Below, in pieces: positions 9,057 to 56,193 of a stretch of DNA of 64,000 nt. How positions within the stretch are numbered: position 1 is the first letter of the stretch; each line of letters opens with the position of its first letter. The notes below the pieces were generated by a model that saw nothing but the letters and a program-made list of their open reading frames with translations, ran no database searches and was not told the origin of the DNA. The stretch is from Brachycybe producta (taxonomy: Eukaryota > Arthropoda > Diplopoda > Playtdesmida > Andrognathidae), in assembly GCA_036925085.1 (NCBI GenBank), contig JAUPFP010000025.1, forward strand, positions 2,895,733 to 2,959,732, in the 5' to 3' direction. The translations under genes were made by a program, and so were the position numbers.

Positions 9057-9274
9057 AAGGGCATTTAGAAATCAGGACGAACACAAGTTGGCTCCGCCCC
9101 TTTTATGACGACGGGCAACTTTAATTGGTTTTTAACTAGTTTTGTTGCATGGTTCAACGTTGAAAACGGCGGAGCATGTGACGTCAGACTACATAACCAA
9201 CCAATTAGAAGCTGTCGTTCTTCATAAAAAAGGGCGGAGCCAACTTGTGTTCGTTTCGATTTCTAAATGCCGGT
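9057..9274. mobile_element. A-family fold-back element (A1)
   Basis: A copy of the CATTTAG subtype with degraded tips (AAGGGCATTT...AAATGCCGGT). Flanked by GTCAGAACT on both sides. It sits exactly on the left border of a B-family hAT element, so its duplication contains that element's own 8-bp duplication plus its first base. Confidence 0.85.
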
Positions 9275-9282
9275 GTCAGAAC

Positions 9283-9710
9283 TAGGTTTGTCACCTGTGG
9301 ACGACACAGGCAGTTAGAAATAGGTGAAAACTTCAGTTGGCTCCGCCCTTGTTATGACGACTGGCAACTTCTAATTGGCTGGTTATGAAGTCTGACGTCA
9401 CATGCTCCGCCGTTTTCAACGTCCGTCAGACTACATAACCAGTCAATTAGAAGTTGCCAGTCGTCATAACAAGGGCGGAGCCAACTAAAGTTTTCACCTA
9501 TTTCTAACAACCTGTGTAGAGGACAGTCCTCCATTCGGAAGAACTGTCCTCCGGCCAGGATCATCATCCTCCACGAACGTATTTAAGTTTTTATACAATT
9601 TATTGTGTGGAGGACATGTTTGCCTTCGTGGAGGACGGTCCTGGTCGGAGGACATAATTTCCTCCGAATGGAGAACTGTCCTCCACAAAGGAGTAAAGGT
9701 GGCAAGCCTA
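9283..9710. mobile_element. B-family hAT-like MITE, interrupted (B1)
   Basis: Inverted ends TAGGTTTGTCACC and AGGTGGCAAGCCTA. The 8-bp duplication is GTCAGAAC. The body is made of repeated GGAGGACAGTCC-type palindromes. An A-family element (A2) is inserted 23 bp from the left end. Length without the insert is about 210 bp, like the uninterrupted copy near 18.1 kb. Confidence 0.85.
9306..9515. mobile_element. A-family fold-back nested in B1 (A2)
   Basis: ACAGGCAGTTAG...CTAACAACCTGT, flanked by GTGGACGAC and GTAGAGGAC. Both are one-base variants of the GTGGAGGAC present in the uninterrupted B element, which proves the insertion site and duplication length (9 bp). Both arms share the variant AATAGGTGAAAACTT. 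Confidence 0.88.
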
Positions 9711-10140
9711 GTCAGAACTGAACAGCCGGACTGAAGTTTTAGAACCACTGATTTAAAACCCCCCAAAAAAACAAATCTCTTAACTAAAATAAGACACAAT
9801 ATAAAGCAAAAAATCGTGAATGTCCAGCATTCGATTAAAATTCAAAGTCAATTACAACAGCGAATTTATCCATATAATAAATTCATCTCAAAATATTTTT
9901 AAAATGTTGGAGTAATTAATGTTAACCGTGAATTAAACATAAACATCAAGTATTTTTTTTTTTCGGAAACAACTTCAGAATGAAACTTACACTTTTAAGG
10001 TTGTCGTTTCAAGGTTACATTAACCTATACCTTAAATTACGAAAGGACCATATTTCGAAATTAAAAAGTTGCTATTGAATTCTTGTCAAAGTTTGCAACT
10101 CTTTTTGAGACATTGGTTATTATTTTATACATATATGTGT

Positions 10141-11268
10141 CTTCCATCTTGGCCGATTCCATCTAAGCCGAGGATGAGGGTTGGATGTGAAGGCTAGAAA
10201 TAAGCTTCCCTTCTCCTGTATTACATATGGAAGAATTGCCACATTTTCCGCTCCGATCAGCCAATGTTAAGGTGAAAATAGAGGTAAGCTGAAAAGCTTA
10301 CCTTTCAGCTTAAGCTTAGAAAAATTGACATCTTTTTCACACAAGATACTGGCCACTTAATAGTAAAATAGCTACCAATTAGTAAAACAAATTAATTATA
10401 TTAGAGGGGTTGGAAACGAATCCTAAATTTTCTCAAATCCGAATCCTAAAAGGTTCTCGAATCTCTCGAATCCTTCATATAAGAATCCTATATTTATTCA
10501 TTAAGCAGATACAAATAAATGAAAAAAATATTAAATTATTAATAATAAAACACAGTCAGGGGTCGCCGCAAGGGTCCGACCGAAATTGCAACAATCGCCG
10601 GTTTTTTTTGTGTGTGTTAGTGAAGGCTTCTATTGGACGTCAGTGGAGTTAAAACTAATTTAACCAAAGTTTTTAACAGTTTTTTTTTTAGGTTAGGATT
10701 CGAAAATTCGAAAGATTCGAAAGACGAAAAAAGCAAAGATTCGAGTTTTCGAATCTCAAATATTTTTCAAGATTCGCGGGATTCGAATGTCCCATCCCTA
10801 ATTTATATCTTAATAATTTAATTTTAAATAATTTATTTTATTTTAATATTTTGTTTTCACTGATTATATATAGCATGTTTTTTCTATTGTTCCTTCTATA
10901 AAAAGTAACAAATTTGGACACTTCAATGCCAGTTTGATTCAAACTGGTCACATATTTATAACATCATTAGCTGAACAACTTCTTTGACCAAGTTTGACAA
11001 GAGGATTTCAAGGAGAATTTCAGCAGAAAATTTCAGTAAAAGCCCAAACATTAAAATGTCAAAGCTTTTGCTAAAACTGCAATATGCTGACTTCAAGTTT
11101 ACATCCTCAACTCATTTTTTTTTCTCCTCCTCTATTTTCGCCTTTATAATTAATTAACAACAGGAACGGAGGATGTTAATGTGGACACTCTTAATATGAT
11201 AACAGTAGTTAGCCTCTACTTCCAACCCTTCGTCGTCGACCGAACTGAAAGTGGCCGAGATGTGTACC
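10141..11268. mobile_element. diverged fold-back pair around F1
   Basis: The CCATCTTGGCCGATTCC...GGTTGGATGTGAAGGCTAG block is mirrored loosely at 11,207-11,265 (AGCCTCTACTTCCAACCC). Between them lie F1 and AT-rich DNA. A third relative of the arm is at about 5,604-5,640. Confidence 0.45.
10402..10800. mobile_element. F-family hAT-like element (F1)
   Basis: TAGAGGGGTTGGAAACGAATC ends on one side are mirrored by GTCCCATCCCTA on the other. The flanks AATTATAT / ATTTATAT match at 7 of 8. Rich in GAATC / GATTC words. The inside has a conserved word CCGAAATTGCAACAATCGCC. Confidence 0.83.
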
Positions 11269-13057: not shown

Positions 13058-13208
13058 TATTATAAAAGAACCACTATGGAGTGTTTACCCAAAATCCATC
13101 TGCTCGTAACTTCAACCACATCTGTGGTTATGGTTTTATTTGGAAACTGCTTTCTAGAGGTTATGTCTATTTGAAGCTATTTAAAATGTGAACTTTTCAG
13201 TCAAGGTT

Positions 13209-27100: not shown

Positions 27101-30100
27101 TTGCGAAGTTCTATTCGAAAACAGTTACCGTTTAAAACGTTGGATAGTTAAATTAAATTGGATCAATCCCCGTTTTTGTTCTCTGTTCACTTCAACAGTG
27201 AACAGAGAAAAAAAAACGGGGATTGATCCAATTTAATTTAACTATCCAACGTTTAAAACGCCTGAAGTACTCAATAGAGCCTTCATTATCTTGCTACATT
27301 AACACATAGCTTCTGCCACCATTGTTTAAGAACATAAGAAACTTCCAGCTAAAATCCTCCTTGTTACAAGCTGTGTATCTACAATGTATTTCCTCGTGAG
27401 GTATGAGCAAATCTAGCTGAATCTATTAGAAACGCTCATAAATCCAATATTCCGTCACGATAAAAAAAAGAGTTAATTCGAGCACTCAAGCAATTAACTT
27501 CTAATTACGTTTCAATGCAAAACAACTTAATTTAAAAATACTAATTGAGCGAAACATTAAAAACTGATGTTTACGGGATAAGATCAGTTAAAAATTTACA
27601 CCGCACTTTTTTGTAAAATAAAAAGAAGTGCTGCATCTCGAGTCTAGACGAACTCAATTGGTGGTGTGTCCTTTCCGTACTACTTCTTCGAGACTACATA
27701 TTCAATAAACTAATAAGGATTTAACATTTCTTAATTAAAACCGCCACAGACGTGAGCATAATGACTCCAACAAAAAAAAACCAGAGTTGTTGGACGCTTT
27801 CAGTTTTCTAAAAGATTTCTGACTCGGCTCTTGAGAGAAGCTCGCATCTGCATGAGGTGTTGCATGTTGTTTTTTGTGAAAATCATTAATTGATAATAAA
27901 AAAAATAATTCATGATTTAAAATAGTTTTGCCTATTTTGTGCCTCATACATAGTCAGTTCATCGAACAGAATCAAAAACGCTTAGAAACTGTACATCTTT
28001 AAGCCCGGCGCCGGGAAGGCTGCATGGGGTGGCCGTGGGCTCTGTTCAATTTGCGGCGCAGTACTACCATCTATGTTTTACAGATTTCCCCAAGCGTGGG
28101 CTGGGTTCAATATGCGCCGGGGCCTTATAAGCAAAAAGGGTCGAAGGGTGAATAAAGTGGAAATTTCTATATTTGCTCTTCTAAAACATAACAAATCTTC
28201 ATTATTGCTTAAGTTACTATCGGTATAATGTATTACGTTGAACCTAGATTCGCCAAATGACGGCCAGCAGCTTATTAGTGTATGGCCCGCAAGATAAGGA
28301 TGCAATTAATTGAAATTTTAGAACAAATCAATTTCAATTCATTTATATTTTAACTTAAAAGTTAAAAGTTAAAAATTAAAAATTAAAAATTAAAAATTAA
28401 AAATTAAAAGTTAAAATTAAACTTAATTTTTTAACTAGCGTTACATCTGAAGATTTGGTCTGCCAGACAGCTCATTTCACAGAAGGATAAATGATGCATT
28501 TCATCTGTATTACTCAGATCCGTCAGTCCAGACACTGAATAGTTATTGTGTGTACAATAAATCCCTTACACCCAGTACACACTCGATAATTTAAATGCAT
28601 TTAAATAATAAACGTGTTCTACAGAGCCCTGTGAAGGACAAACAAACAATAAGTCGAATTCAATTTATCCAGTTAATAATCTCAAAAATATTAAGTTAAT
28701 ACTTAAATATATAAACTATTGACAAAATATTGATTTAATTTAATTAATATTCAATAAATTTAAAATATTAATAATAAAAGTCAATTTTTATTTGGTGTTC
28801 ATGTCCTTAACTGGATTCCGTATAATTCACCTAAACACATTTAATTTGAATTCATTTAACTCATGTGTGTGTGTACAAGGTATTAAAACCCGTCTCCAGC
28901 ACATTATAAAAGTCTCGAGAGCGGGTTTACGAAACCTCCCAGAGCGTTTTATGAAAACTCCCGAGACTTAAAGCATGTTCCCGTAAAACACATCGAATAT
29001 TACTGAAGTTCCAAGAAAGATCTGGGGCGTTTCTGAAACTAGAAAACCTTTAAAAAAAAGACCAAAAGAAAATTGAACAAATATTTAGCTATTAATTTCC
29101 AGTAAATGTCTTAATTGAGTGCCTCAAAGAAAGTCACGGCTTCTTCCTCGTGTTGCACATAAAGATTTAAGGTTGCTAATGGCCATACTAAAAAAAAAGC
29201 TAAGCTGTAAGCAAACAAGAAATAAGTAGAGAGTTTGGGGTTTGGTATTTGAAAAAGAAGAACTTTCAACAACAACAAAAAACCTCCATCTCGAAATACT
29301 GAGTACCTTGAAATGAGACTCCCGAGAATCAAGTTTCAAGATATTGTCTTCAGTAAGAAACCCTTAAAACCCCTTCGCCTCAACAGAATAAAAGATGATA
29401 TATCCTCATCTAAAATTCACGTCTCCATTTTGTTTGCTGCTACTTCTTCATGAATATTACCTTTTACACTTAGTGTTTCTCGCCTATTTTTTTTTTTTCT
29501 TCTTAAAGATGACCCACTTTTCAAGTCCTCTCTCATCTACAAATTTTAGAACTTATAAAGCTTAAGAAGGCTGAATAGATAATTATTTCGCTCAGAACCG
29601 GTTCCCAATCCAGGCATTTAGAAATCGGGACGCACACAAGTTGGCTCCGCCCCTTTTTATGACGACCAGCAACTTCTAATTGGTTGGTTATGTACTCTGA
29701 CGTCACATGCTCCGCCCTTTTCAACGTCGAACCACACAACAAACCAATTAGAAGTTGCCGGTATAGTCATAAAAAGCGCGGAGCCAACTTGTGTTCGTCC
29801 CGATTTCTAAATGCCTGTGTTCCCAATAAGCATTTGCAAATTTGTGCAGCACATTAGTTAAAGCGAAGCGAAGAGTAGAACCGAAATGAATCTACTCGGT
29901 TTGGAACCAGTTCGTATCAGTTTGACTTATACTGGCGAACCCGTTCCAAACCTTTGGAAATCTCTAAACCCAAACCAAAATAGCACATCATAACCGAGCC
30001 TACCCCCACCCATATACGCATAAATAAAATGCTAAATAAACCTCAAATTATAATTTTCGCAGGCGTTTTTACGCGTTGTTGGCGTTTACAAGATATTTAC

Positions 30101-33100
30101 AAAAAATACATTGGCGCGAGACCCTTCAACAAGAATTTACCGTTTTTTTTTTTTTAAATTCGAGTAGAAATCGTCGCAACAACAAAAAAACCCGACCTAA
30201 AAACACGCGGTAGAACTTTTCAAACAAGGCCACGCACGCATTAAAACTGTCTTCAAAAAAAGAGAAACTTAAAATGTGCCACGTAATGTGAAGAATAGGT
30301 CAGAATAATAAGTTGGAAGCACCAAGAATGAAACTGAAAAATTTCAACAATTCATCTAATTTACATATTGATACGGTGAGCGACAGGCAAAGTCCAAAAT
30401 CCAAAAAACTGACCACCAAAAAAACACAGGCAGTTAGAAATCGGGGAAGACTTCAGTTGGCTCCGCCCTTGTTATGACGAACGCAACTTCTAATTGGTTG
30501 GTTATGTAGTCGGACGTCACACATGCTCTCCGCCCTTTTAACGTCGAACCACACAACAAACCAATTAGAAGTGGCCGGTCGTCATAACAAGGGGGGAGGG
30601 AGCCAACTGAAGTTCTCCCCGATTTCTAACTGCCTGTCCAAAAAAACAAGTTACAATGAAGAAAGATCAAAAGAATTCTTTCTGAGCTTTTCAATCAACA
30701 AGACTGTTTAGAGGCTAAAATTCTTAACAACAAACTCAAGATTTCAAGGTTTTTAAGATTAGGATCAACTATGCAACCTTGCAGTTAACCTCTTAAGAGT
30801 TCTCCTTTAAATCTAGCCTCTAAATAGTCTTACTGAATGAAAAACGTGATAATTATTTTAGCCTTACTAGTTCGCATCTTACCAAGACGTTAGCTATCTA
30901 TTTAACCTGATAATATTAATATAACCTTCAATTACCAATAGTAACAAAATAAAATATTCAAATATATATTTATAATAAATATTCTCAGTAAGCAACCAAA
31001 CGCAAATTAAAAACCAAAAGTGCAACAAATTACAAGGCAAGTGTGCCCAGCACTAAAATTTTGTTTGATCCTCCCTTTCATTAGCGAAAGCAATTTCTAA
31101 TTGGTTTGTTACTTGGTCTGATGTCATACAAGGGCGGGGCAAACGAAATATTAGTGCTGGGCACACTTGCCTGTCCCCAAATTTGCCTCTTGGAATTTTT
31201 CGTTATTACATTTAAATTCTTGTGCTGCCTAGCTTTTGTATTGCTTTAGCTGTTGTACAGTTTAGCTCTTATATGGTCCTATTCCTTAATGAATGCTAAG
31301 TTAAAGGTAGTGCTAAACGCCTGAACTTTAACTTTATGAATTTAGCACTAGCTTTAATTTAGCAATCACTAAGAATATGACCATCACACTTTGTATTTTT
31401 CAGATCACGTATTTTAGCTCTTGTGTTTTAGCTCTAGTGTGGTTTAGCTGTTACGCAAGTTTAGCATTTACTTTGTAGTACAATAATAAAGTTATTTATT
31501 AATTTTAGCTCTCTCTCTCAGTTTGTTAACTGAGTTTAGCCTTAGCTTAGTTTAGCACTTAGTCGCGTACTCATTTCTACTTACTGTATATTCAACTAGA
31601 ATAACAGCCGTACAAATTACCGGAATCTAGCAGCAGTTAATAATGGCTGCAATTGTTAAAACCTTGAATTTTATTTCGCTATCGCACATGACGTATACAG
31701 GCAATTAGAAATCGGGACGAACAGAAGTTGGGTCCGCCCTTTTTATGACGATCGGCAACTTCTAATTGGTTTGTTGTGTGGTTCGACGTTGAAAAGGGCG
31801 GAGCATGTGACGTCAGACTGCATAACCAACCAATTAGAAGTTGCCGGTCGTCATAAAAAGGGCGGAGCCAACTTCTGTTCGTCCCGATTTCTAATTGCCT
31901 GTTGATGTGTATTCCCGCCGTAGCCAATAGCTATAGCGTTACGACGGCCGGTCGCTTCAACCAAATTATTATATTAGATAATATTTAAAGAATTCGACTA
32001 ACATAAAAAAACAAACAAAAATTGATCTAAGAAGAAAATAATTAAAATGTCTTAAATTATTTAAGCTAATATGCAAATTAAAATCCTTAAAACGGTTTTT
32101 TCTCTTTCCTGTATTAAACAATGAACCTGAAGACAAATTTCTAACTGTTTCATGCTAGAATTTCTAGTCTTTTATTTTTGGTGTGTGTGGAAAATAAATA
32201 ATAAATTAATGTGACACATTTGAGACCTGTTTCATATTACCACAATTAACTGTCATCTGAATAATTAATTAACATTAAAAATGTTGTAAATTTCTAAAGC
32301 AAACTTGGTTCCATCATTTTTCATTCTGTTTTTAGGCGCAATCTGCGTTATTAATTTCTTACGAATTAGTTAATATGTTACCGTGTCCATCTGGCTAAAA
32401 ATTCTTTCCACCCTCTTCTGAGGAGTATTTTCATCATCTTGTGGATTAGGTTTACTTCCCTATTAAAGAAATAAAACTGTTAATCATCACCGATTTTCAC
32501 ACAACAAAAACTTATATAAAGCCTCGTTTTCACGGTGGCGATAGTTCTTTCGTGAGAGTAGCTATCATGAAAGTTGCGATAGTTCACTCCCACGACAGCA
32601 ACTGTCTACATGTCTTGAAGTAACGTGATAGTTCTGTCTTGACAGTGTGACGTCTACTTCACAGATATCATTGAGTCAACAACAGGGTTCCCTCACTCTC
32701 CCCCGCCCCCGCCCCCGCCCCCCTCCAGAAGCCAAATTTCCCTACAAGTGGTCACTGAACAACTATTACTATTGCGACAGTACTATCAACTATCTAGTCA
32801 AACCGAGATAGTGTGATAGTGGTATCGCAACAGTGTGTGATAGTGACTATCATGTGGTAGACAACAACTATCATGAAAACTATCACCGTGAAGACGAGGC
32901 TTAACTCAAAGAAGCATTTTTCTTATGTGGGTTTTTTGTTCATGAAGAAAAAATAAGTTGACACTGATGTTTATTTGAAGTTTACTGTTGAAGACATAAA
33001 GAAATTTTTTTATCTCGCCCGGACGAGTTACTAAGTCGTCCAGACCAGATAAGATAGTAAGCCGAGTCAGGATGAAAGAAAGAATATTGTGGAGTAACTC

Positions 33101-36100
33101 TAAAACGTGAAACAAAAATGCATATAGAAATGGCTGAACACTGTACCAACATAGGTGCGAAACAACATAACCTTTTTTTAAATTAAATCATGTTTTTTTT
33201 ACATTCTGGGGGCTTCTCCCCCATACCCCCTGCAACAAGCTTAATTTAACGTAACACCACCTAATCACCGATATAAAAAAGTATAATGTTCCTCCAATTC
33301 TATATGCAGTCTATTTCGGGTTTTAGAGTTACCCTACAATGTTCATCCTTTCATCCAGAGCCGACTTAGTATCTGTTCCGGACGATTCATTGTATCTCGT
33401 CCGGACAAGATAAAAAAAAATCTTATGTCCTCAACAGGGCTCCGTAGTATCCACAGCTGGGACGATTTCGTTTTTGGCGACAATTTTAACTCCGACGACT
33501 CCAAAAGCAGGAGGTGGAGGCTAGCAGTAACGTGTGGTAAACGTAGTAATTGCAATGTTTGTTTGTTTTCTATGGAAAAACGCCAACCGTTTTCAAAGTC
33601 TCGTGTGTACCACTAGGTTGACTTGTCTTTCTATAGAAAATACATTGCAACGACAACGAACTCAGCGACCTATTGAGACAGGCATTTAGAAATCGGGGAA
33701 AACACAAGTTGGCTCCGCCCTTTTTATGACGACGGGGAACTTCTAATTGGTTTGTTGTGTGGTTCGACGTTGAAAAGGGGCGAAGCATGTGACGTCAGAC
33801 TGTATAATCGAGCAATTAGAAGTTGCCAGTCGTCATAAACAGGGCGGAGCCAACTTGTGTTTTCCCCGATTTCTAAATGCCTGTCCTTTGAGACATTTCT
33901 TCTTGTCGTCAAAAGTCGCCTGTTGTGTACCAAAGGCCATAAGGCTGATTTATTGATTTTTGTTAATAAAAAAAAACTCAAATGTGTTTGAAATCGCGAT
34001 TTAAATAATTGCATTAAATCAATTGAATTTAAACCAATCAACATTAAAATATATAAAAAAATAATCTTTTTATGTGTGTCTATCTCTAAATAGATTCGAA
34101 CCTACCACCATCTGGTAAATCGCATCAACAATGTTGTACATTTCATCTTTGGTGATGTATCCGTCATTATCAACGTCATACAGGCGAAATGCCCCTATTT
34201 TAGAATAGATAATAATAATAATAATAATAAATGACAAAATGAGCGAATTATAATAACAACAACAACAACAACAACAACAAAAAACGAAATCAGGCAAGTA
34301 GGATATCGAAAGAAATTGGACAGAAGTTAATAATGCATTGAAAATGTGGGCAAGATAACTTGTTCTCAAATACACTCTCTTCAAGCTCATTGAATTCCGC
34401 CCAACTGGTTTCAAAAGAAAAATCATCGAAGAACAGAAAAGAAGAAGAAGAAGAAAAAATTCGTCGAGAGAAAAAAAAAAAAATAAATTCCGCTATCTTA
34501 AATGGCAGTTGCAAAATATACAGACATAAATTTTCTTAGCTTGGCAAAAGTAACTCACAAATGCACTTACATATTATACATAAAATACTAGACATGCTTT
34601 TTTTTTTCTCCTTCTTCTTCTTTTCCGTTCTTCTTCTTCGTGTTTACTGAATTTTACAGCATAAATGAAAGTTCAATTCGAATACAAGAGAAAAAAAAAA
34701 TCAATATTAAGACTTAAATTAAATTTCAAAGTGTCATTTAAATTACAACACTTGATGTGATTTATTTTATTTCTGTCTTGTAGCTCAGCAACATAAATTA
34801 ATCTTGCCATATATATATATATATGTATAAACATCCTTTAGTCCTATTTTAGTGACAGGAACACAATTTGTGGCTCTGGTGAAGAAAATAAAACCAAGCC
34901 CTCATACAGAGAGACATCATTCAGATTTCAAGCTGCAGATTAGAGACCTACATTGTGTAAAAATTTGAAGCTCAGCCCAGCGCAGCCCATGAGACTTTAT
35001 ACTGAGCCCAGACCACAAAGCTTACCAGGCCCATGGGCTTTATGTCATTCTCTACTATCGATGACGACAATACAGACACATAAACAATTTTTTTTAAGAG
35101 GTTACATCGCAAAATTACTTTGAAAAATCTCCACAAAGAGCGCTAGCATCGTTTTCTTATTGAGCCCATAGACCCAATGTATAAGAAACAATGTTAATTT
35201 TTAAAATAGACAGTTGCGGCAATATGTTTATTTTTCATATTTAAAAATTGTCCAATATTAAGTTTTCAAAATGCAATGTGCACCTTAAATATATGCTGAT
35301 CTAGTGATAGAATGACAAAAAAATTTGTAAGTGCTGTTCTATTTTTAAAAATTATTTCAAAATAGCGAATTTCTAACTCTTATGTTTAAACTCCATTGAG
35401 TACGTCCTCGTAAGAAAAAAATATCCAATTAAAATGTTGGTAAAAAAATACCTAAAAATAATTTTAAAAAACCACAATTAAATCACAGTGAAGCCAACAC
35501 ATTGGCGCACGTGTTGATTTTTTTCTGTTTTGTTTTTTTAAATTATTTTTACGTATTTTTGCGAACATTTTAAAGGATGTTTTTTCAATGAAATTTAGCA
35601 ATTCTCGATTTTGAAATAGTTTTTAAAAATAGAACCGCACTTACCATTTTTTTTTGTCATTTTTTTCACTCGATCAGCATATATTTAAGATGCACATTGC
35701 ACTTTGAACCATCAAAATTGGACAACTTTAAATATGAAAAATAAACATATTGTCGCCGCGACGACTGTGTATTTTAAAAATTAACGTTTCTTCTTTAACA
35801 TCGAGTCTATGGGCTCAGTAGAAAAACGATGCTAGCGCTCTTTGTGGAGATTTTTCAAAATAATTGTGGGATGTAAGCCTCTAAAAGTCGCATTTGAAGT
35901 TGCAACAAGAAATTTTTTTTTTGTCGGCCACCAACGACCACCTGGGGGGGCATAACATACGACACAAACTCTTAAATGATAAAACTAATTTTCTGAAATA
36001 AAAATAAAAAACGAGCTGTGAGATCGACTTTCTTAATAAACTGCGACAAAAAAACGCGTCGCAGAAAAAACATTTGTACTTCCGACCTAAACTGCCAAAC

Positions 36101-39100: not shown

Positions 39101-42100
39101 GCAAAAACATAATAATAATAAAGAAAAAAAAAACCGTTCCTGTTGTTTTATGTTACTTACATGATTTTCATCAAATACTCTGAATACTAAAGAGGCAAAT
39201 TTTGTGGGATCTCCTTGTGGAAAAAATTGTTTGTAAATTTTGATGAAGCCCTGAAAAAAATAAAATTAAATTAAATTATATATATATTAAGCCCCGTCTA
39301 TCTTTCTTTCTTTCCCTGTATCAGTAACGCTGTCAAAACAAAAACAAAAAAACGCGTAAGCACATCGGAATTTATATAAATTTAAATGAACCACTTTTTT
39401 TTTTTCTCAAGATCAAGATTACGTTGCGCTCTCCCCATCCAAGCACCCCATGATATTAAATTGGAAAGGAGAGGAGGGGAGGGGAGGGGGGAAAGGTTGG
39501 AAAGGGGAGGGGGATAGAGCGAAACGTGGAGGGTAAAAAAGGGGGAAGGGGAAACTGAAATTGAAATTAAAGTCCCTAAGTAAAAAAAGGAACAAACGAC
39601 GCGCATGCGCATACCAGAAAAAAAAATGAAAAGCTCATTTTCTCTTTCAAATATAAAAAAGGGGAGGGGATAATAGTAGCAAAATTAAACTAGAATTTAT
39701 CACAGGTAATTGTGCCCAGCATTAGAATTTCTTTTGCTCCGCCCATTTATGAACGTCATAAATTTCTAATTGGTTTGTCTACTTGGTCTGAAGTCACATG
39801 CTCCGCCCTTTTCAATTTCTAATTGGTTTGTTACTTGGTATGACGTCATAAAAGGGCGGAGGAAAAGAAATTCTAAGGCAGGACACAATTGCCTGTAAAT
39901 TTGGCTCCCGTCATTTATGACGGGTTACCCCACTAGTAACTAAATAAATGACAAACATCTTTAATAAATAAATAAAGATTGAATAATTCATGAATAAGTT
40001 TCGATGGATCCGTCGTTCAGAACGTGTAAATATTTTGTGCCAAGTTTGAATTTCTTTTTTATTTTTGTTTAAATAAAATCAATTGAATCGATTCAGTTGA
40101 TTATGACTCAGGTTCGGATTTCGATTCAATAGCAACCAAAATGTTTCTCAATATGTGGCCCAAGTGCCAATTGTGAAATAACAATCTCGTTTAGATAAAA
40201 AAAGTGTTCTTTCTAATTAAAACACCTGGTTAGAGGTTAGAACTCTAGTTGACAACTGATAGCAACTATACATCTAGCCTCTCTAACCAACCTTTTTTTA
40301 TTAGAAAAAAAGCATAATTGCATTTGCTCTAATGATGATGATGATGATGATGATAATGATTACTTCACAATTGGCACTTAGGTGCACAGATTGAGAAATA
40401 TTTTGCTTTTGATACGTCATAAAAATCCGAACCCTAATTAATTATGACTAATTTTACGATTAATTTTATATTTCAATGTAACAATAAAAAAATTGTACAC
40501 TTGCTAGAAATTGACACGTTTGGCACCTCATACAAGGCTTGTCTCCGAAGTAATGAGAATCAGGAATGTTTGATTTAAATCACTAAAAAAATGCCCTAAA
40601 GACACATTCCCTGAAGAAATTTACCCTAAAGGAATGATTGCCCTAAGACTACTAGCATAGCTGGGAGGGCGGTCCGCCCCTGGTTGCACTTTTTTGGGGG
40701 CGGCACCTTTTTTTCTGTCCAAGGAGCACAAGGAGCTTTATAAAACTCTTAAGATGTCCCAAGAAGGAATTATGAAATTTTTGTCGCTCGCTGTGCTCGC
40801 AGAATGTATTCTGCAATCCAGCATTATGTTTTTAAGTCCGGGTCCGGGTCCTGGTTTATTTAATAATTTTATAATTAATATAAAATTATATAAACCATTT
40901 CACCCACTGGATATCGATAATATCGATTGGCCCCTCCCAGACCAGAATCCTTGGTTGTGCCACTGATGTTGCATCGTGTTGTGTTTTTCGTAAGGAAGGA
41001 GTGGCAAACTCAAGGACCGCCCCTGGGTGGCACAAACTCTAGCTACGCCACTGCCTAAACCCACTTTTTTCCCCCCTCTTTTCATACGGTTTAAAATAGT
41101 GTCTTTTGGTGGAGTATGTTTAATAGGTTCTGTGTGCCACAGGCGCACAAATAATACCAAATGACATTTGGGCTGCTGATTACAGCAAACGTCCCTTTTG
41201 GGCAAGTGGTTATAATGCAAATGTCTGTTTAGGGAAATTATCCCTTTAGGGCAAGTGTCTATAAGGCAAATGTCTAATGCAAATGGCTTTATGTCAAATG
41301 TCACACACACACATACTTCCAACATAAAAGAGCCACAAATGCTACAATGTAACATATATATAATTATAGTATTTTCTGGACAATATCTTTGGATAAACCT
41401 TTTCACAACTTGTTCAAAAAAGCCGAGGAAAAAAAAAATACTGACAGCTAATTTGGCCAACTTGCAGTGATAAACAAAAGTCGCCTACGTAAAACTACCT
41501 TTAAAAAGTTTATTTTTAAAGATATCGATCATGAAAATCGCATCTGCTAGTGACATTGATGGATCAAAAAGCTTAAAAGGTTAGATACAATGATACATTT
41601 TATAGAGATTGAAAATGTCATGAATTGAGAAGTTGTTGGTTGGATTAAAGAATTAGCACATTCTATATATATACTGTATGCATATAGTCTCTTCGTATGT
41701 AGGCCTACAGTATGTGACAGAACCATCGATACAATCTGATATCAAAGTGGCGCATCAACGTAAATCCAACAAGCTTATTCAATGTCGATTAGCCATTTCA
41801 ATGCGACAATCAACATCGAATGAATACAGGGTGGATTGATTTAAATAATTTGTTTCAACGATTTAGATCGCAATCCCCTAAGAAACATTTACCCTAAAGC
41901 AATTTGATGTAAAGGTACATTTGCCGTAAAAAGACATTTGCCCTAAAACCGTTTGCTCTAAAGGAACGTTTCCCCTCTAAAGGCACATTTGCCCTAAAGG
42001 GACAGTTGCCCTAAAGCAAATTGATGTAAAGGTACATTTGCCATACAACCATTTGCTCTAAAGGAACGTTTGCTCTAAACGAACATTTGCCCTAAAAACA

Positions 42101-44270
42101 TTTGCCCTAAAGCAAATTGATGTAAAGGTACATTTGCCCAAAAACCATTTGCCTTAACAGCACATTAGCCCTAGAGACATTTGCCCTAAAACTGTTTGCT
42201 CTAAAGCAGTGGTCGCCAAACTTTGAAGTCAATGAGCAACCGTACTTGCTCCTAAATCTTACTGTGAGCTACCAAAAGAAACCAGGAAAAAAATAAGTTT
42301 TTTTTATAAATCACACATTGAAAATTTATTGCCTACAAACATACATTTCTAGTAAATATTAAATCCAATTAACAAAATTGTGTATTACAATCTCACTCTC
42401 GCTAACCTGAGATGCACTAGTGACTAGTCCACTAGTGCATCTCAGGTTAGCCAACCCAAGTGTGACCGAGACTGCGATCTACCTAAAATTTCCCCGCGAG
42501 CTACCAGTAGCTCGCGATCGACGGTTTGGCGACCACTGCTCTAAAGGAACATTTGCCACAAAACCATCTGCCACAAAACCATTTGCCATAAAGGAACATT
42601 TGCCATAAATCCAGTTGCCCAACAGGAACATCTGCCCTAAAATCACTTGCCCTAATCAGCAGTCTTAATACACGGGTAAGTTATTTACCGTTATTTGTGC
42701 GCCTGTGGCACACAGAACCTATTTAGCATACTCTACTGAAAGACACTAAACCGTATGAAAAGAGAATAAAAGATAAAAATAAATTAAAATTTCAAAATAA
42801 GTAGCTTCCCCTTTTGGGTTTAGTTTTAGGGGAACCACATCCATTAGAGGAAGTGGTTTTAGGGCAAATGCACATTTTGGGCAATTGGCATTAGGGCAAA
42901 TGTCTGTATCCCTAGCAATAGATATAGGTGTTTTTTTCCTGGAACACACTGTATCAGAGTTGTATCCTGAAGAAAATGATTTAAGACTTCGAAAAAAAAA
43001 AGTTCATGATCTCTGCGAAATCAATCAACTTAAAGACTTGAGACGTGTTAAGGGGTCGGTTTTCATCAGAGGATCTTGCAAAATTAAAAATTAATTACAA
43101 GTGTGTGATCTTATTGCCATAACTATCGCCATTTTCCTTGACGAATCAAGTCTTTCAATGAGGTTTATACACGGCACCACTTACGTCGATCGAACACAGT
43201 ATGTCGTCGTATGCAGGCAAATGTTTCTCAATCTGTGGCTCAATTGTCAAATTGTGAAACAATTAACAACTGCAATTATGATTTTTTTTTAATCAAAAAC
43301 GACTGTTTAAAGGCTTGGATGTGTGGTTACTATCAGTTCTAGCCTCTAACCAATATTTTTGATTGAAAGAAAAAAACAACAATTGTCGGTTGATTATTAA
43401 TTCAAATTTAGCACTTGAGCCACAGATTGAGAAACATCTGCTTAATACTGCATTAAAATCCGTGCCCTGGTTATGACGTAGCAGCTACATAACACTTTTT
43501 TCCGCAGGCTGGAAGTTAGATTTTGACGCCAATATGAAGTAATAACACAGGCAGTTAGAAATAGGTGAAAACTTCAGTTGGCTCCGCCCTTGTTATGACG
43601 ACCGGCAACTTCTAATTGGTTTGTTGTGTGGTTCGACGTTGAAAAGGGCGGAGCATGTGACGTCAGACTACATAACCACTAACCAGCCAATTAGAAGTTG
43701 CCGGTCGTCATAACAAGGGCGGAGCCAACTGAAGTTTTTACCTATTTCTAACTACCTGTGTAATAACCTCATTGTTTGAATTTGCAAAGCAAAATAAAGA
43801 AGCAGCTTTGAAACCACAGAAAGCAAATAACATCCAGTTTTGACCCTCTTTATAACATGTATATCGGTGTGCCTGGTTTCTTTACTCTTCTAGTTTCTAA
43901 ACGTGGGTCCATTTTTAGTAAAATGTTACTAATGTAGACTCACCTTAACAAACTTTCAAAATTTTTTTTTTTAAATACTAGAAAAAAAGGGTTCTTGTTG
44001 CATATTTATGAACAATGAACAAGTACAGAAAAATATAATACAAACTCATGTTTTTTTCTCTCTTCTGTTATAAACACACAAAATCGATATTTGAATCAAT
44101 TGAAAGAAAGTGTTTTGAGGATCAAGTGAAACACACACACAAAAAAAAACAAAAAAACACCTAAAAAAAAAGCGAGAATATACTTGGAAATAGAAAAACA
44201 GCCAGAAAATATCATCCTTACTTGTTCTGTTAACAATCCATCTGGACAGTCTTTTAGAAATCCTTTATAC
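24100..44270 (-). CDS. frq: Frequenin / neuronal calcium sensor-1, gene span (six exons, 5' end missing)
   Basis: Six minus-strand exons with AG/GT borders join in frame into about 158 residues ending at a stop. The first in-window residues ([16 protein letters not shown]) form the degenerate EF-hand 1 with the Cys-Pro that disables it in this family. EF2 ([12 protein letters not shown]), EF3 ([12 protein letters not shown]) and EF4 ([12 protein letters not shown]) keep their acidic ligands and the terminal Glu. The tail is [10 protein letters not shown]. Known NCS-1/Frequenin proteins are about 187-190 residues, N-myristoylated Ca2+ switches that act at neuronal and Golgi membranes and regulate PI4-kinase, Ric8 and Ca2+ channels. 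The myristoylation start (MGK...) is not visible here, so the first roughly 30 residues are missing and the in-window part is about 84% of the protein. Introns are about 1.6-8.2 kb and loaded with short transposons. Identity is very secure; the species-specific gene name is inferred. Confidence 0.95.
24554..24739. mobile_element. G-family fold-back (G3)
   Basis: GCCTTGTTTCCACTGGGGTA ... TACCCCAGTGGAAACAAGGC, the cleanest copy, with CACGTGTGTTCTATTT arms. It lies in the frq last intron about 360 bp from the terminal exon. Confidence 0.85.
24869..25256. mobile_element. hAT-like fold-back (DD) with GAACCGGTT words
   Basis: Ends TAGAGATGTCAATGG and TAGCCACCTCTA, flanked by a perfect 8-bp duplication GATCGGAA. 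Long internal inverted repeat (GGTTCCGAAC / TTGAAACGGTTCGGTAGC and mirrors). Confidence 0.85.
25265..26460. other. frq last intron, mostly unassigned
   Basis: A short GCGCACTGTGTTTT tandem at about 25,335. 26,220-26,400 is less AT-rich and may be an old element; no motif recognised. Confidence 0.45.
26461..26910 (+). mobile_element. possible solo LTR of an old LTR element (fossil)
   Basis: About 450 bp bounded TGTTATG...TGTTACA, with a TATA box (TATAAATAG) near 26,546 and no neighbouring internal region recognised. No target duplication seen. Family cannot be named. If real, it is an old solitary remnant. Confidence 0.3.
27129..27260. repeat. 132-bp near-perfect hairpin
   Basis: Arms of about 63 bp (CGTTTAAAACGTTGGATAGT ... 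TTCTCTGTTCACT) around a few-base loop. No other copy in the window and no target duplication seen. Confidence 0.92.
27261..28570. other. frq last intron, unassigned with a GC-rich direct repeat
   Basis: GTGGGCTCTGTTCAATTTGC at 28,036 and GTGGGCTGGGTTCAATATGC at 28,097 are diverged direct repeats in a local GC-rich patch. Confidence 0.45.
28360..28430. repeat. TTAAAAA-type tandem repeat
   Basis: About nine units of AAAGTTAA/AAATTAA. Confidence 0.9.
28571..28883. mobile_element. J-family element, single copy (J1)
   Basis: CATTTAAATAATAAACGTGT to GTGTACAAGGTATT with the core CCTTAACTGGATTCCGTATA. AT-rich, no ORF. Confidence 0.8.
29610..29818. mobile_element. A-family fold-back element (A4)
   Basis: CATTTAG subtype with arms containing CGGGACG and CACAAGTTGG. 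The perfect 9-bp duplication is GTTCCCAAT. It lies in the large last intron of frq, inside a DD-like repeat. Confidence 0.86.
29828..29975. mobile_element. fragment of the DD family
   Basis: GGTTTGGAACCAGTTCGTATC and the end word AATCTCTA match the right half of DD. The left half lies across the A4 insertion (TCAGAACCGGTTCCC), so A4 landed in an older DD copy. Confidence 0.5.
30426..30637. mobile_element. A-family fold-back element (A5)
   Basis: ACAGGCAGTTAG...CTAACTGCCTGT, flanked on both sides by CCAAAAAAAC (9 or 10 bp). Last intron of frq. Confidence 0.86.
30702..30830. mobile_element. short fold-back GACTRTTTAGAGGCTA
   Basis: GACTGTTTAGAGGCTAAAAT and mirror ATCTAGCCTCTAAATAGTC, 129 bp. 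The GGCTAG stem resembles the inner stem of family K. Confidence 0.6.
31032..31174. mobile_element. C-family fold-back element (C2)
   Basis: Short copy (143 bp): ACAAGGCAAGTGTGCCCAGC ... CAAGTGTGCC mirrored in the right arm, which ends CTTGCCTGT. Flanks CAACAAATT / CCCCAAATT (7 of 9 match). Last intron of frq. Confidence 0.75.
31697..31902. mobile_element. A-family fold-back element (A6)
   Basis: CAATTAG subtype. Both tips and both arms carry matching variants (ACAGGCAATTAG / CTAATTGCCTGT, GAACAGAAGTTGG on both sides). The flanks GACGTAT and GATGTGTAT suggest a degraded duplication. Confidence 0.85.
32382..32459 (-). CDS. frq: frq exon, EF3-EF4 linker and first residues of EF4
   Basis: A 78-nt exon with acceptor TTTAATAG and a slightly weak donor ACG|GTAACA. 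It encodes [20 protein letters not shown] then FSQMDT. The DENTPQKRV string matches the arthropod Frequenin linker. The residues before it (GSKPNPQ) lie in the family's variable patch. The H1 fold-back element begins only about 60 bp upstream of the acceptor. Confidence 0.95.
32519..32902. mobile_element. H-family fold-back (H1) beside a frq acceptor
   Basis: AAGCCTCGTTTTCACG and CGTGAAGACGAGGCTT ends with many GATAGT/ACTATC words and a unique core CAGAAGCCAAATTTCCCTAC. A CCCCCGCC tract sits in the core. Confidence 0.83.
32986..33440. mobile_element. EE fold-back (EE1)
   Basis: GTTGAAGACATAAAG and CTTATGTCCTCAACAGGG, with TATCTCGTCCGGACAAGA words in both arms and a CCCCCATACCCCCTG core. Intron of frq. 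Confidence 0.78.
33678..33884. mobile_element. A-family fold-back element (A7)
   Basis: CATTTAG subtype with GGGGAAAACACAAGTTGG in both arms. The flanks CCTATTGAG and CCTTTGAG are a 9-bp duplication with one small change. It lies in the frq intron between the EF3 and linker exons. Confidence 0.84.
34106..34194 (-). CDS. frq: frq exon with EF-hand 3
   Basis: An 89-nt exon with acceptor AAAATAG and donor GTG|GTAGGT. It encodes [19 protein letters not shown] then [11 protein letters not shown]. The EF3 loop [12 protein letters not shown] has D1, D3, D5, G6, I8 and E12 intact and should bind calcium. Reading on past the donor gives unrelated intron sequence until a stop. Confidence 0.95.
35094..35884. 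mobile_element. E-family long fold-back (E3) in a frq intron
   Basis: Left TTAAGAGGTTACATCGC and right GGGATGTAAGCCTC. Both arms are complete. It lies in the intron between the EF3 and EF2 exons. Confidence 0.85.
36531..36609 (-). CDS. frq: frq exon, rest of EF2 and inter-lobe linker
   Basis: A 79-nt exon with acceptor TTAAAG and donor GCAT|GTAAGG (phase 1, splitting a Trp codon). It encodes [20 protein letters not shown] then LDEKLA. The RALSITSRG linker between the two EF lobes is nearly invariant in the family. An F-family transposon copy starts about 100 bp upstream of the acceptor. Confidence 0.95.
36709..37155. mobile_element. F-family element (F4) in a frq intron
   Basis: Right end GATTCGTCCCACCTCTA is intact; the left end is rearranged (TGTCCCATGTCCCATTCG). 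It lies about 100 bp upstream of the EF2 exon acceptor on the transcribed strand. Confidence 0.8.
37214..37583. mobile_element. S fold-back
   Basis: CCAGCTTCACACGGACCACT and the mirrored GTTCTGTGTGAAGCGG. Inside are GTGTCGCCAC / TTTGGCGACAC words. C3 is inserted at its right edge. Confidence 0.65.
37589..37730. mobile_element. C-family fold-back element (C3)
   Basis: Short copy (142 bp) with CTGCCCAGCACTAACGTTTC and its mirror GAAACATTAGTGCTGGGCAG. Tips ACAAGCATCT / AGATATGCCTGT. The flanks share TTCAG, so the duplication is degraded. It lies at the right edge of S-type fold-back DNA. Confidence 0.72.
37737..38113. mobile_element. S-like fold-back, second copy
   Basis: CAGGCCCACTTCAGACGAATC with the right part ACACAAAGTGTTCCCCGTGTG. 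More diverged than S; runs into element EE2. Confidence 0.5.
38122..38570. mobile_element. EE fold-back (EE2)
   Basis: CTGTTGAGGACATAAGATAT and mirror ATATTTCATGTCCTCAACAG. Same core as EE1 in the opposite orientation (GCAGGGGGCTCTGGGGGTG). Confidence 0.8.
38581..38928. mobile_element. R fold-back
   Basis: AAGGCGGGTTCACACTGAGT and GACTCCGTGTAAACCCGCCTT, with GTGGTCGT words mirrored inside. Same TTCACAC sub-terminal word as Q, S and T. Confidence 0.8.
39161..39250 (-). CDS. frq: frq exon, EF1-EF2 linker and start of EF2 loop
   Basis: A 90-nt exon with acceptor TTTTTTTCAG and donor CAT|GTAAGT. It encodes [20 protein letters not shown] followed by [10 protein letters not shown]. The last four residues are positions 1-4 of the EF2 calcium loop, so the intron (phase 0) cuts the loop in two. 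Confidence 0.95.
39277..39936 (+). mobile_element. Helitron-like element (I3) with C4 inserted
   Basis: The body matches I1 and I4 (GGAATTTATATAAATTT, GACGCGCATGCGCA) and ends in the same hairpin and CTAG|T. Family C4 interrupts it shortly before the end. Confidence 0.6.
39702..39896. mobile_element. C-family fold-back nested in a Helitron-like element (C4)
   Basis: Ends ACAGGTAATTGTGCCC and AATTGCCTGT. The flanks GAATTTATC / AAATTTGGC correspond to the single GAATTTTGCTCC word found in related Helitron-like copies at 1.7 kb and 59.7 kb, which marks the insertion point. Confidence 0.75.
40109..40436. mobile_element. K-family hAT-like MITE (K3)
   Basis: Ends CAGGTTCGGATTTCGATTC and AAAAATCCGAACCCTA with GTTTCTCAATATGTGGCCC and mirror. 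TTATGACT occurs next to both ends but offset by 5 bp on the right. Confidence 0.78.
40655..41053. mobile_element. hAT-like composite fragment (BB)
   Basis: The right end TAGCTACGCCACTG and the left AGCATAGCTGGGAGGGCGG are typical hAT CAGTGGCGTAGCT tips, the left one eroded. A second hAT tip (minus-strand CAGTGGCACAACCAAGG) ends at 40,965, so one element sits in another. Confidence 0.6.
42207..42538. mobile_element. hAT-like MITE (M)
   Basis: Ends CAGTGGTCGCCAAACTTT and GTTTGGCGACCACTG. The perfect 8-bp duplication is CTCTAAAG. It is inserted in the L-type CCCTAAA repeat field. It contains a 22-bp-armed palindrome around 42,397-42,450. Confidence 0.88.
42397..42450. repeat. hairpin inside element M
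   Basis: The arm GCTAACCTGAGATGCACTAG is mirrored after a short ACTAGT-containing centre. It looks like a recent local inversion-duplication. Confidence 0.88.
43198..43469. mobile_element. K-family MITE, left end eroded (K4)
   Basis: GTTTCTCAATCTGTGGCTC with its mirror ACAGATTGAGAAACAT and right tip AAAATCCGTGCCCTG. The left tip TATGTCGTCGTATGCAGG is diverged. Confidence 0.7.
43470..43835. mobile_element. X-family copy interrupted by A8 (X2)
   Basis: GGTTATGACGTAGCAGCTAC matches the centre of X1, and AGCAGCTTTGAAACCACAGA matches its right arm. A8 splits the two. The left arm is absent, replaced by K4. Confidence 0.55.
43547..43759. mobile_element. A-family fold-back element (A8)
   Basis: ACAGGCAGTTAG...CTAACTACCTGT with flanks GTAATAAC on both sides (8 bp visible). 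The arms carry AATAGGTGAAAACTT / AAGTTTTTACCTATT. It is inserted in an X-family fold-back copy in the first visible frq intron. Confidence 0.86.
44222..44270 (-). CDS. frq: frq exon encoding cryptic EF-hand 1
   Basis: A 49-nt exon with acceptor TTATAG and donor CAA|GTAAGG. Its first base completes a codon split with the unseen upstream exon; by family alignment that codon is the Trp of QW-YKGF. It encodes [16 protein letters not shown]. The C-P pair in the loop is the family hallmark of a non-binding EF1. Confidence 0.93.
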
Positions 44271-52895: not shown

Positions 52896-53396
52896 CAAGT
52901 TTCTATGAATGTTGCTCCTGAAAAAAATAAGGAGTTTGCGAAGCGTTTACACTTTAAAACCACGTTAAGTAGGCCTATGTATTTCATGTTGATATCTTTC
53001 AAAATAAACTTTTTTTATAGACAAAAATCAATATTTTCCTATTGAAAACAAAAAGCTCATCTTTAATTTTATCTTGAGATACTCAATGCAAAAAAAAAAC
53101 GCTTCACTAATATGTGTGATTCATCCATAATCGTTGAATGATTGACTTTTTAAAAAAAATACAAGTACTCAATACTTCCCCCCCCCCATCATTACAACTC
53201 CCTAAAGAATTTCTTAACAAAAAATATGTTGTCACATTCCAGAACAGCATAATAATTTTTATATCATCTACTAATAGTATGAGCATTCCTGTGAGAAAAA
53301 AAAATAAGCTTTAAAGAGCTTTATATAATGTATGTTGTATAATAAAACTCAAATCAACTGTTAGAAAATTGTCTTTTTTTTAAAAAAAAAAGTACT

Positions 53397-54088
53397 TAAA
53401 GAGACCCCCATTACCTCCAGAAATTTCTTGTCAAAATATTGTCAAGAATTATTCAACAATTACCAAAACAATTTCTAAAATTCAAAATAAGTCATTAATA
53501 TAATTTAAAAAAATTAAAAATTAGTTGAATTCATGTGAAATGAACTTTATCAGATAGATGCGCCACCAAACAACAGACATTGGCAACAAACGATTGTGAA
53601 AACGATTTTTAAATTTTAAAATAAGTCAAATAAATCATAAAAAAAAACTTAAAAATGAAGGTGACTTTTCGTGAGTCACACCAAACGACGCTATTTTAAG
53701 TTTCCAAAAACGAAAGTCCACCCCCCCCCCCTTTTTGTTTTGAATGTTGTCACCTCACATTTCCAGAATTCCTTATTAAAATACACGTATTCCCTATTCA
53801 TATTCAACTCAATACAACCTTTCATGTGGAATAATTCAAATATTAAATCCATAATACTTTCAAATGAAAGTAATGTGAGGAGGTGACAACACATGAGAAT
53901 TCGAGTAGACGAGTAGACTTTGGGGGGGGGGGGTTTGTTGCCAATGTCCGTTGTCTACATGAAGTCAACTGATTTTTATTTATTTTTTTAAATTATATTA
54001 ATCACTTATTTTAAATTTTAAAAATCGTTTCGGTAATCGTTGGAATAATTCTTGACAAGCAATTTCTGGAGGTAATGGAGTCTCTTTA
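53397..54088. mobile_element. GG fold-back
   Basis: TAAAGAGACCCCCATTACCT and GGTAATGGAGTCTCTTTA; about 690 bp, with long arms and an inner GTCACCTCACATTT / AATGTGAGGAGGTGAC pair plus C and G tracts. Confidence 0.8.
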
Positions 54089-56007
54089 AAAATTAAATAA
54101 GAAGTAAAAGTGAAGCTTCACTCTTTCTTTATAAACACTCTGTATATATGAATACATAAAAGATAATTTCAGAATAAGAGAAAAAGAAGAAAGAAGAAAG
54201 AAAAAAAAAAAGCATTTGCTTGTTGAATACACACACACAAAAAAGTAATTCATTCAAGTGAATGAAAGAAAAGACTGGCCACAAATAACATAAACACGAA
54301 AAATAGATAAAACTATTTTTCTAAAAGTGAAGCAGAAAAGAAAAAATAAATATAAGGAAACAGAAAATAAACATAATACTAAAAAGAAAATACCAAAAAG
54401 AGATTAGAATTTATATGAAAATAAGAAAGATGTAAAAAAAAAATCCGCAAAGAACTATTTAAAAGAATGAAAATAGAAGATAAAACTGGAGTTTAAAGAT
54501 GAAAAGTAGGTAACAAACGAGCTTCAAAAAAAAAAAAAAAAACGCGTAAAACAAAAAGTAACGCGGAGGTAATAATAATAGTAAGAACAGTAGAAATCAT
54601 TATCTAAAACCATTTAAAATGTTTTTAAAAACCTATTAGAATAATTATAGCAATTTCAAAATGAACATCTCAATAAAAAAGGGGTGCATTCGAAAACAGC
54701 TAGCAAAGGCTTTGTCTGTGTTTTGGAACTAGAGGCGCCGCCGTTCTAAAACTCTGGCCTTACTCAAAAGTTAACTACGAGAGCTCCATAGAAAAATACT
54801 TGTGTAAATAAAACGTAGGTGGCGCCTGCAACCTTCACAGGTGGACAAACTACACTTGACAATTACTTGAAATCGAGTGCGGCTTTTTTAGCTAATAAAA
54901 AAGTCCAAAACAACCTATTATCAGCACGTGACAAACTTAACCCAGAACATTGTATAAGTGGAGGGAGAGAGAGAGAGACAGACCGCAACCATAGAGAGGG
55001 CTAGTGGCGCCATCTAACGCTACACCCACAAAATAAATGATCTACTTGTATTATTAAATAACTTTGAAAAGATAACAATAGAACAAATTCAATGACACTT
55101 GCCGCAATAACGTTAAAGGCCTTATGTGTCATTACAGAAAAAAAATATGACTCACGTGATAGTAAATTGTCACAAAAGTAAATTACAAGAAAAAAAATTA
55201 TGACATATAATTGTCATAGGAATGCCATTGACTGAATATAATGAACATCTGATAAAAGTCATCATAAATCACAAACCGTGACATCAAAAGGTATGATTGT
55301 CACAATTTTATGGATTTTTCTGTAAGATACTAGTCACTTCAATATAGTAACCTATGACTAGTTTTGTCTATTTATTAAGGTAAAAGGTTAGCAGGTAGCA
55401 AAAAAAATTCCAAACCTCACATTGCCTACGTCACCCATAATCCCTACTTTATATTGGGGGGGGGGGGGTGGGGGACATTTCTAAGTTATGAGCCAATCTA
55501 TGGACCTTGTGTTTTTCCCAATGTATTTTCTATGGAAAGACGCAAACCTTTGCACACAGTTAAAAAGTCGTCCGCGTGCCAACATTGGTGGTATTTCCAT
55601 AAAAAATACAGTGCGAAGACAGCCCAGTGACATTGTCGCCGACAAGTCTTTCAAAAGTCTCCCGTGTGCCATGCAGGCCCTTAAGTTTCCTTTTTTGAGG
55701 GGGAATTTCAGCTTTAAACTACTGGCAAAAGAGGCAATAAACAATGGTAGAAATGGTTTCATAATAAATAGTAGAGGGTTAAAGGTGCCTCTCATTTGTA
55801 ACTCGTGAGTCAGTCCACAGTGACTGATTTTCTTAATGGATGCACTGCACTGGCTTTTGTTGTTTTGCTAAATGCTGTGTGTGTGTTTTTTTTTTGTTAT
55901 ATCAAGAGGGCCGCCCTTCCCGAGTTCATAAAATATGCAACTGGCTTACATTTCACTTGAGAATAGACAGTTTGCTAAGTCGCTTTCACGACTAATTTTG
56001 TCAATTG
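54089..56007. other. unassigned stretch upstream of frq exons
   Basis: A purine-rich part (54,170-54,550), a less AT-rich part (54,700-55,010), and S-like words near 55,510-55,680 (ATGTATTTTCTATGGAAAGA, CCGTGTGCCA). No exon found. Confidence 0.45.
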
Positions 56008-56193
56008 ACAGGCAGTTAGAAATAGGTCAGAACTTCCGTTGGCTCCGCCCTTCTAATTGGCTGGTTATGTAGTCTGACGTTGAAAAGGGCGGAGCATGTG
56101 ACGTCAGACTTCATAACCAGCCAATTAGAAGTTGCCGATCGTCACAACAAGAGCGGAGCCAACTGAAGTTCTGACCTATTTCTAACTGCCTGT
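56008..56193. mobile_element. A-family fold-back element, internally deleted (A9)
   Basis: Tips are intact (ACAGGCAGTTAG / CTAACTGCCTGT) and both arms carry AATAGGTCAGAACTTC-type variants. The left arm lacks the TATGACGACCGGCAAC block. No clear target duplication is visible in the flanks (TGTCAATTG / AAATAAAAG). Confidence 0.8.

Follow-up and report, generated by a model that had tools for sequence, protein, structure and literature searches.

The two arms of the A elements, short hairpin transposons in a 64,000-nt stretch of the Brachycybe producta genome (contig JAUPFP010000025.1, positions 2,895,733 – 2,959,732, forward strand; the whole stretch is hereafter the window), carry matching sequence variants. 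These paired variants are probably subfamily signatures, the arms having been matched by arm-to-arm copying in the source lineages from which the copies were amplified. A preliminary description of the window had taken the variants as private to each copy; the sharing is real, but the variants recur in many other copies.

By their anatomy the A elements form a foldback family of miniature inverted-repeat transposable elements (MITEs), non-coding and high in copy number. They are hairpin MITEs of ~205 bp with the termini ACAGG...CCTGT, in which two arms flank a short asymmetric loop. The length between the arm ends is 200–209 bp in 158 of 188 sampled copies, and there is no coding sequence. Outside ACAGG...CCTGT an exact 9-bp target duplication is found in 67 of 171 copies, the number among the 188 in which tips and flanks are readable. 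The arm core GTTGGCTCCGCCCTTNTTATGACG matches the 295.3-Mb assembly (442 contigs) 7,879 times, 3,937 forward and 3,942 reverse, and the reversed control gives no match. Folded as single strands, A2 and A6 (listed below) each form one long hairpin at about −100 kcal/mol; shuffled sequences reach −21 and −25. Small size with terminal inverted repeats, absence of coding sequence, a target duplication of fixed length and high copy number are all features of MITEs. Rfam at gathering thresholds and a tRNA scan returned no matches.

The window contains nine inverted pairs of A arms and a tenth, single arm truncated at its end:

5725–5929, plus strand: A element, arms 5726–5797 and 5858–5928, with TAATATGA common to both flanks; identified by its TTTTTATG/TTGTTATG difference as the A3 of the preliminary description
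9057–9274, plus strand: A element with decayed tips, arms 9060–9128 and 9201–9271, flanked on both sides by TCAGAACTA
9306–9515, minus strand: A2, full-palindrome type, haplotype AATAGGTGAAAACTT in both arms, right-arm sequence replacing the inner left arm
29610–29818, minus strand: A element, CATTTAG tip on each arm, arms 29611–29683 and 29744–29817
30426–30637, minus strand: A element, CAGTTAG tip on each arm, arms 30427–30497 and 30561–30636
31697–31902, plus strand: A6, standard asymmetric interior, haplotype CGGGACGAACAGAAG in both arms; the orientation reference
33678–33884, plus strand: A7, haplotype CGGGGAAAACACAAG in both arms, with 38 exact arms genome-wide
43547–43759, plus strand: A8, standard interior, AATAGGTGAAAACTT in one arm and AATAGGTAAAAACTT in the other
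56008–56193, plus strand: A9, full-palindrome type, haplotype AATAGGTCAGAACTTC in both arms, one of which is shortened by a 20-bp deletion
63951–64000, plus strand: further A-type copy, the single arm truncated by the window end

The strings that the preliminary description had assigned to both arms of A6, A7 and A9 are indeed there. The one that it gave for A2 and A8 is present in both arms of A2 but in only one arm of A8. The 7-base tips, said to match within a copy, do so in seven of the nine copies and differ in A2 (CAGTTAG/TTGTTAG) and A8 (CAGTTAG/TAGTTAG), and the 13-base signature at arm positions 16–28 is identical between arms in four of the nine. The one-spot difference ascribed to A3 exists as well, but in an element outside 9057–56193, the interval to which it had been assigned, and a mutation after insertion is not its only explanation: it falls on position 45, a common two-allele subfamily site, so that exchange explains the difference equally well. 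Over 72 arm positions of the nine copies the distance between own partners is 0.064, whereas reshuffling of partners gives a mean of 0.133 and a lowest value of 0.075 in 2,000 trials. Concert between the two arms thus goes well beyond chance.

A search with an arm profile yielded 199 convergent pairs, representing 188 distinct copies: 9 from the window, 81 random and 98 picked by similarity (28 A2-like, 21 A6-like, 40 A7-like and 9 A9-like). The random copies were drawn from contig C1, where the first 100 matches to the core were used and one intact arm core was required. Because choice by similarity biases the A2-, A6-, A7- and A9-like sets toward concordant arms, figures for the 90 window and random copies are given separately. 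Orientation followed the best alignment to A6, and with a score difference of 10 as the limit every copy could be assigned. Sixty additional single-arm loci were fetched, giving 47 pairs in range (2 of them duplicating earlier copies) and 13 loci without a pair. The analyses thereby cover 188–233 copies out of several thousand in the assembly. Alignment columns with more than half gaps were excluded throughout; cluster comparisons use clusters of at least two copies, and the same-haplotype test uses haplotypes with at least three concordant copies.

At positions 1–50 of the 188 copies, the distance is 0.059 to the own partner, 0.145 to the opposite arms of other copies, and 0.148 and 0.143 to same-side arms; in the 90 window and random copies the corresponding values are 0.068, 0.136, and 0.136 and 0.137. 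Therefore the outer arm has no left or right identity. The check proposed in the preliminary description, to compare arm identity within and between copies, bears out the pairing in the outer 50 bp (5.9% difference to the own partner, ~14.5% to others). The clustering of left arms with left arms, which it had named as contrary evidence, is not seen there: the nearest other arm lies on the same side for 110 of 376 arms, on the opposite side for 92, and is tied for 174.

The arm linkage ends near positions 45–52. Kappa between arms is 0.49–0.76 at ten sites (7, 16, 19–22, 26–28 and 45), 0.45 at position 15 and 0.31 at position 23, and falls to between −0.07 and 0.24 at six sites in 52–65, apart from sites that vary too little. 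Over positions 51–72 concert is almost nil (own 0.084 vs 0.091; 0.100 vs 0.100 in the 90 copies), and positions 73–92 are side-specific, with distances of 0.081 to 0.173 within a side and 0.244 between sides. Position 73 itself reaches a kappa of 0.67 because it is fixed in a palindromic lineage described below. The haplotype over the ten sites is the same in both arms of 19 of the 90 copies, where reshuffling predicts 3.8 and reaches at most 11 (2,000 reshuffles).

This concert resides at the level of the subfamily and not, as the preliminary description had it, of the single copy. As average-linkage clustering proceeds from 1 to 22 clusters, the own-partner distance and the distance to other partners of the same cluster converge from 0.059/0.145 to 0.036/0.038, and the own partner is strictly the nearest arm for only 1 of the 376 arms (tied for 28). 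The arms were therefore matched in source lineages, and inserted copies decay almost independently between arms. In the A6-like set (n = 21) the own partner is no closer than the reshuffled mean (0.0430 vs 0.0413); the own-partner excess is small in the A2-like set (0.0395 vs 0.0447) and larger in the A7-like set, which is a mixture (0.0769 vs 0.1105). Exact arms genome-wide number 185 for the A9 string, 38 for the A7 string and 537 for a third string, and these counts, together with the cluster test, reject copy-private variants. Pairs are formed by 46 of the first 100 places listed for the A9 string (23 pairs) and by 14 of the 38 places of the A7 string (7 pairs). Within the sample of 188, the signature of A6 occurs in 33 other copies and those of A7 and A9 in 6 each. 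Where one arm is an intact example of one of three haplotypes (the 47 pairs from 60 loci), its partner often has the same haplotype plus a few mutations; the remaining partners carry neighboring haplotypes of the ladder described below, plus a few unrelated ones.

Alleles confined to one copy mostly sit on one arm: 29 are found in one arm only and 1 in both arms (copy L193), and the latter, T32A, occurs 21 times genome-wide and is paired in two elements. The string AGGTGAAAACTTTAGTTGG occurs 15 times, spread over 14 elements of which one has it in both arms, the G18T string has 4 genome occurrences and no exact pair, and A14T in both arms is common to two copies, L012 and L147.

One lineage shows directly that one arm has been copied onto the other. 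The arms of standard elements differ at positions 75, 79, 83, 86 and 87 (left T, G, G, T, C; right G, A, A, C, T), and in 48 of the 188 copies the inner left arm has all five right-arm alleles. These full-palindrome copies comprise 2 from the window, 9 random, 25 A2-like, 9 A9-like and 3 A7-like, 37 of them being similarity-picked. At position 93 all 48 retain the base of the left arm, which places the end of the tract at the loop; positions 88–92 (GACGT) are the same in both arms. Replacement in the reverse direction is not observed, right arms with at least three left-arm alleles numbering 0 of 188. The inner arms of three sister-family elements have T, A, G, C, T at the five positions. Judged by these three sequences, with their T75 and G83, the right-arm alleles G75 and A83 look like derived states, and copying ran from right to left. 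A rule of three alleles out of five yields 53 copies instead of 48. Among the former and outside the latter is L015, whose element (1350–1553) shows successive G-to-A and C-to-T changes along its inner left arm; as this resembles decay, we rejected L015 as an early palindrome.

Later changes in the palindromic lineage are mostly paired as well. Positions 16, 19, 20 and 22 are concordant between arms in 34 of the 48 copies (CTCG 5, ATCG 3, ATCA 3, ATGA 22, AAGG 1). Parsimony suggests that CTCG, ATCG, ATCA and ATGA form a ladder of single changes, each made in both arms. One-arm intermediates are rare among the 188 copies: CTCG/ATCG and ATCG/ATGG are seen once each.

We propose that variants common to both arms were already in both arms of the source element when it was amplified. 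Sequence would have been copied repeatedly from one arm onto the other in the source lineages. One such event, in which right-arm sequence replaced the left arm along its full length as far as the loop, would have founded the full-palindrome lineage, and later changes at positions 16, 19/20 and 22 would then appear in both of its arms. The shorter paired changes at positions 7–45 would likewise be due to arm copying rather than to selection. As for the enzymology, we infer that copying takes place while the element is single-stranded or broken, either through strand switching templated by the hairpin or because the opposite arm serves to repair an excision gap. Between these two routes, which together are the likeliest, although not a proven, mode of copying, the data allow no choice.

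Several observations weigh against this explanation. Two variants of the palindromic lineage have been amplified on one arm: A82 is present in 36 of 48 right arms and in 0 of 48 left arms, and of the same 48 copies 25 have T5 on the left and 5 on the right. Copying is therefore partial, neither complete nor continuous, and elements with a mismatch in their terminal bases can be amplified. Standard elements have one-sided variants too, namely a right-arm deletion at position 58 (29 of 140) and a left-arm G59 (25 of 140). Outer haplotypes of the palindromic lineage also occur on standard interiors (A8, L170 and L198), and exchange between copies must therefore be part of the history. The order of the ladder steps comes from parsimony and not from a rooted tree. 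In identical-haplotype groups (60 copies, 8 haplotypes), the remaining outer sites are slightly closer to the own partner than expected (0.0500 vs 0.0550, sd 0.0015), a value as low being reached in 0.1% of 3,000 reshuffles. At positions 1–50, rare alleles (2–8 of 466 arms) are shared by the two arms of one copy in 7 cases, with 0.87 expected and 6 the largest number in 2,000 reshuffles; at positions 51–72 there are 0 such cases, with 0.4 expected. T32A, AGGTGAAAACTTTAGTTGG and the G18T string, whose genome counts are given above, are three of these alleles. Still finer subfamilies are the likeliest source of the residual own-partner and rare-allele excess, which may also reflect a low rate of copying after insertion. 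Finally, no autonomous partner with A-type ends was found in a search of the Mutator-like (MULE) family, in which four loci and two larger stretches were inspected.

The preliminary description had offered arm copying or selection for paired arms, and copying is what we see in the 48 palindromic copies. In the selective alternative, amplification would require matching ends because the transposase binds at both, and selection would favor compensating changes in the second arm. It agrees with the restriction of concert to the outer 45–50 bp, where a transposase would bind, and with its absence further in; moreover, the site patterns by themselves cannot tell source-level events from selection. 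On the other hand, the concerted sites 16–28 are the most variable of the outer arm, two one-arm variants of the palindromic lineage, the mismatch at position 5 among them, were amplified, and the five-site inner replacement lies outside the concerted zone. Hybrid copies, with at least 4 of 10 signature mismatches between their arms (16 of 188), weaken it further, since 7 of these 16 copies with clearly mismatched arms keep target duplications matching at 8–9 of 9 bases. We therefore regard selection for matched ends as less likely than copying and, taken by itself, as an unlikely account, although the two could act together.

Recombination after insertion was considered as the source of most hybrids and rejected. 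Hybrids make up 7 of 97 copies with target duplications matching at 8–9 of 9 bases, 2 of 35 at 7 and 7 of 55 at 6 or fewer, and their frequency does not differ significantly between good and poor duplications (Fisher p 0.26). Hybrids either moved as hybrids or underwent conversion inside the element.

Separate parentage, in which the subfamilies are deletion derivatives of different autonomous transposons with already similar ends and no copying took place in the MITE, is improbable. There is precedent in known transposons with long repeats such as Galileo, for which the published account cites repeats 98–100% alike within a copy (PMC3573991). Against this, the subfamilies share one 200-bp body, asymmetric loop included, the palindromic lineage derives from the standard body, its single-site steps are too fine for separate origins, and copying would merely be shifted to the parent, where it would still be required. 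Mutual conversion of the arms of each inserted copy fares worst: the small residual similarity within identical-haplotype groups and the paired rare alleles speak for it, but the own partner is almost never strictly closest, the A6-like set has no own-partner excess, and copy-specific alleles, like AGGTGAAAACTTTAGTTGG, are nearly all unpaired, so that we give it very little credence.

Arm-to-arm copying in source lineages may, in a more speculative extension that we put forward tentatively, be part of the way in which this MITE launches subfamilies. In an active copy that is single-stranded or broken, the hairpin would turn a change at one end into a matched change at both. The ladder of the palindromic lineage would then document how quasi-palindrome correction acts on a transposon, the tracts copied being mostly limited to positions ~7–45 and in one case extending over the whole stem. 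The means by which the two ends of an evolving transposon remain similar are as a rule taken for granted. With thousands of copies, short arms, a clear limit of concert, an asymmetric loop that gives orientation and subfamilies 1–2 bases apart, this family allows the frequency, direction and tract length of arm rewriting to be measured, and rewriting to be distinguished from transposase-driven selection. In annotation, variants common to both arms should be taken as marks of a subfamily, not as signs of gene conversion at the level of the copy.

Other features of the window include sister elements at 6007–6400, 31034–31172 and 39700–39870, which share the inner core of the A elements (TTTGCTCCGCCC, TTCTAATTGG) and have different tips (GTGTGCCCAGCACTAA type). 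Their two arms are likewise similar within a copy. From their sequences, A and sister elements look like one MITE superfamily with exchanged tips. An open reading frame at 34073–34492 (minus strand), with A7 ending ~190 bases before it, has a stretch matching frequenin/neuronal calcium sensor (NCS-1; best match 4by4, E 6.9e-13). In a Pfam scan of eight frames of at least 85 aa, one matched. Two tandem arrays lie at 6555–7034 (30-bp unit, 16 copies) and 57353–58519 (33-bp unit, 35.5 copies), with 96–98% matching.

The A family itself is new, and the kind of behavior that it displays is already known. Word searches of the open-access literature, which are unable to find sequences, turned up no prior account of the A elements, none of a MITE with a ladder of paired arm changes, and no reports of arm-to-arm homogenization in MITEs.

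MULEs make target duplications of 8–11 bp, mostly 9 bp, and have long terminal inverted repeats. The A elements resemble MULE-type MITEs in their 9-bp duplication, a length that is not specific to MULEs, and in their long inverted repeats. PF10551 has 21 matches in the genome, and the MULE loci read carry ends of another kind or none that could be recognized. The sole MULE with readable ends, at locus L234, differs from the A elements in having ACTAGCG... ends; its 796-codon frame is flanked by 70-bp inverted repeats (1814–1883 and 5918–5986, 91% alike), and frame and repeats are probably a separate element of autonomous type. MULE genes near an A arm (L229/L233 and L230) were rejected as autonomous partners, as the arm tip faces the gene, which indicates a neighboring insertion. 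At L233 (~1600–1757) a MITE with one sister-type and one A-type end adjoins a 741-codon MULE transposase frame.

A close likeness among transposons is to Galileo, a Foldback-like member of the P superfamily in Drosophila mojavensis and D. willistoni. As far as the relevant parts of the published accounts go, both systems have long repeats alike within a copy, subfamilies, and copies whose repeats belong to two subfamilies; inner sequence is also recruited into a longer inverted repeat, for which the authors invoke repair from the other repeat (PMC3573991, PMC4168063). For Galileo, too, repair of an excision gap with the other arm as template has been proposed (PMC3573991). There are also differences. 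Galileo elements are described as kilobase-sized with a transposase, whereas A elements are ~205 bp and non-coding. Their 9-bp target duplication contrasts with the 7–8 bp reported for Galileo (PMC4168063), and in this character they do not fit the Galileo/P group. The twelve chimeric D. mojavensis copies are described as lacking matching duplications (PMC3573991), whereas 7 of the 16 A hybrids have duplications that match at 8–9 of 9 bases.

A second parallel is the correction of quasi-palindromes by template switching, proposed by Monttinen and Loytynoja (2022) for RNA hairpins (PMC8794818). There, one event can make or repair a perfect stem and introduce several compensating changes at once. 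That work deals with RNA genes, whereas here a footprint of similar type is seen in a mobile element and is confined to source lineages. A tract of the kind expected of such an event, ending at the loop, is found in the A elements: the five inner sites were replaced together in 48 of 188 copies, and position 93 is unchanged in 48 of 48.

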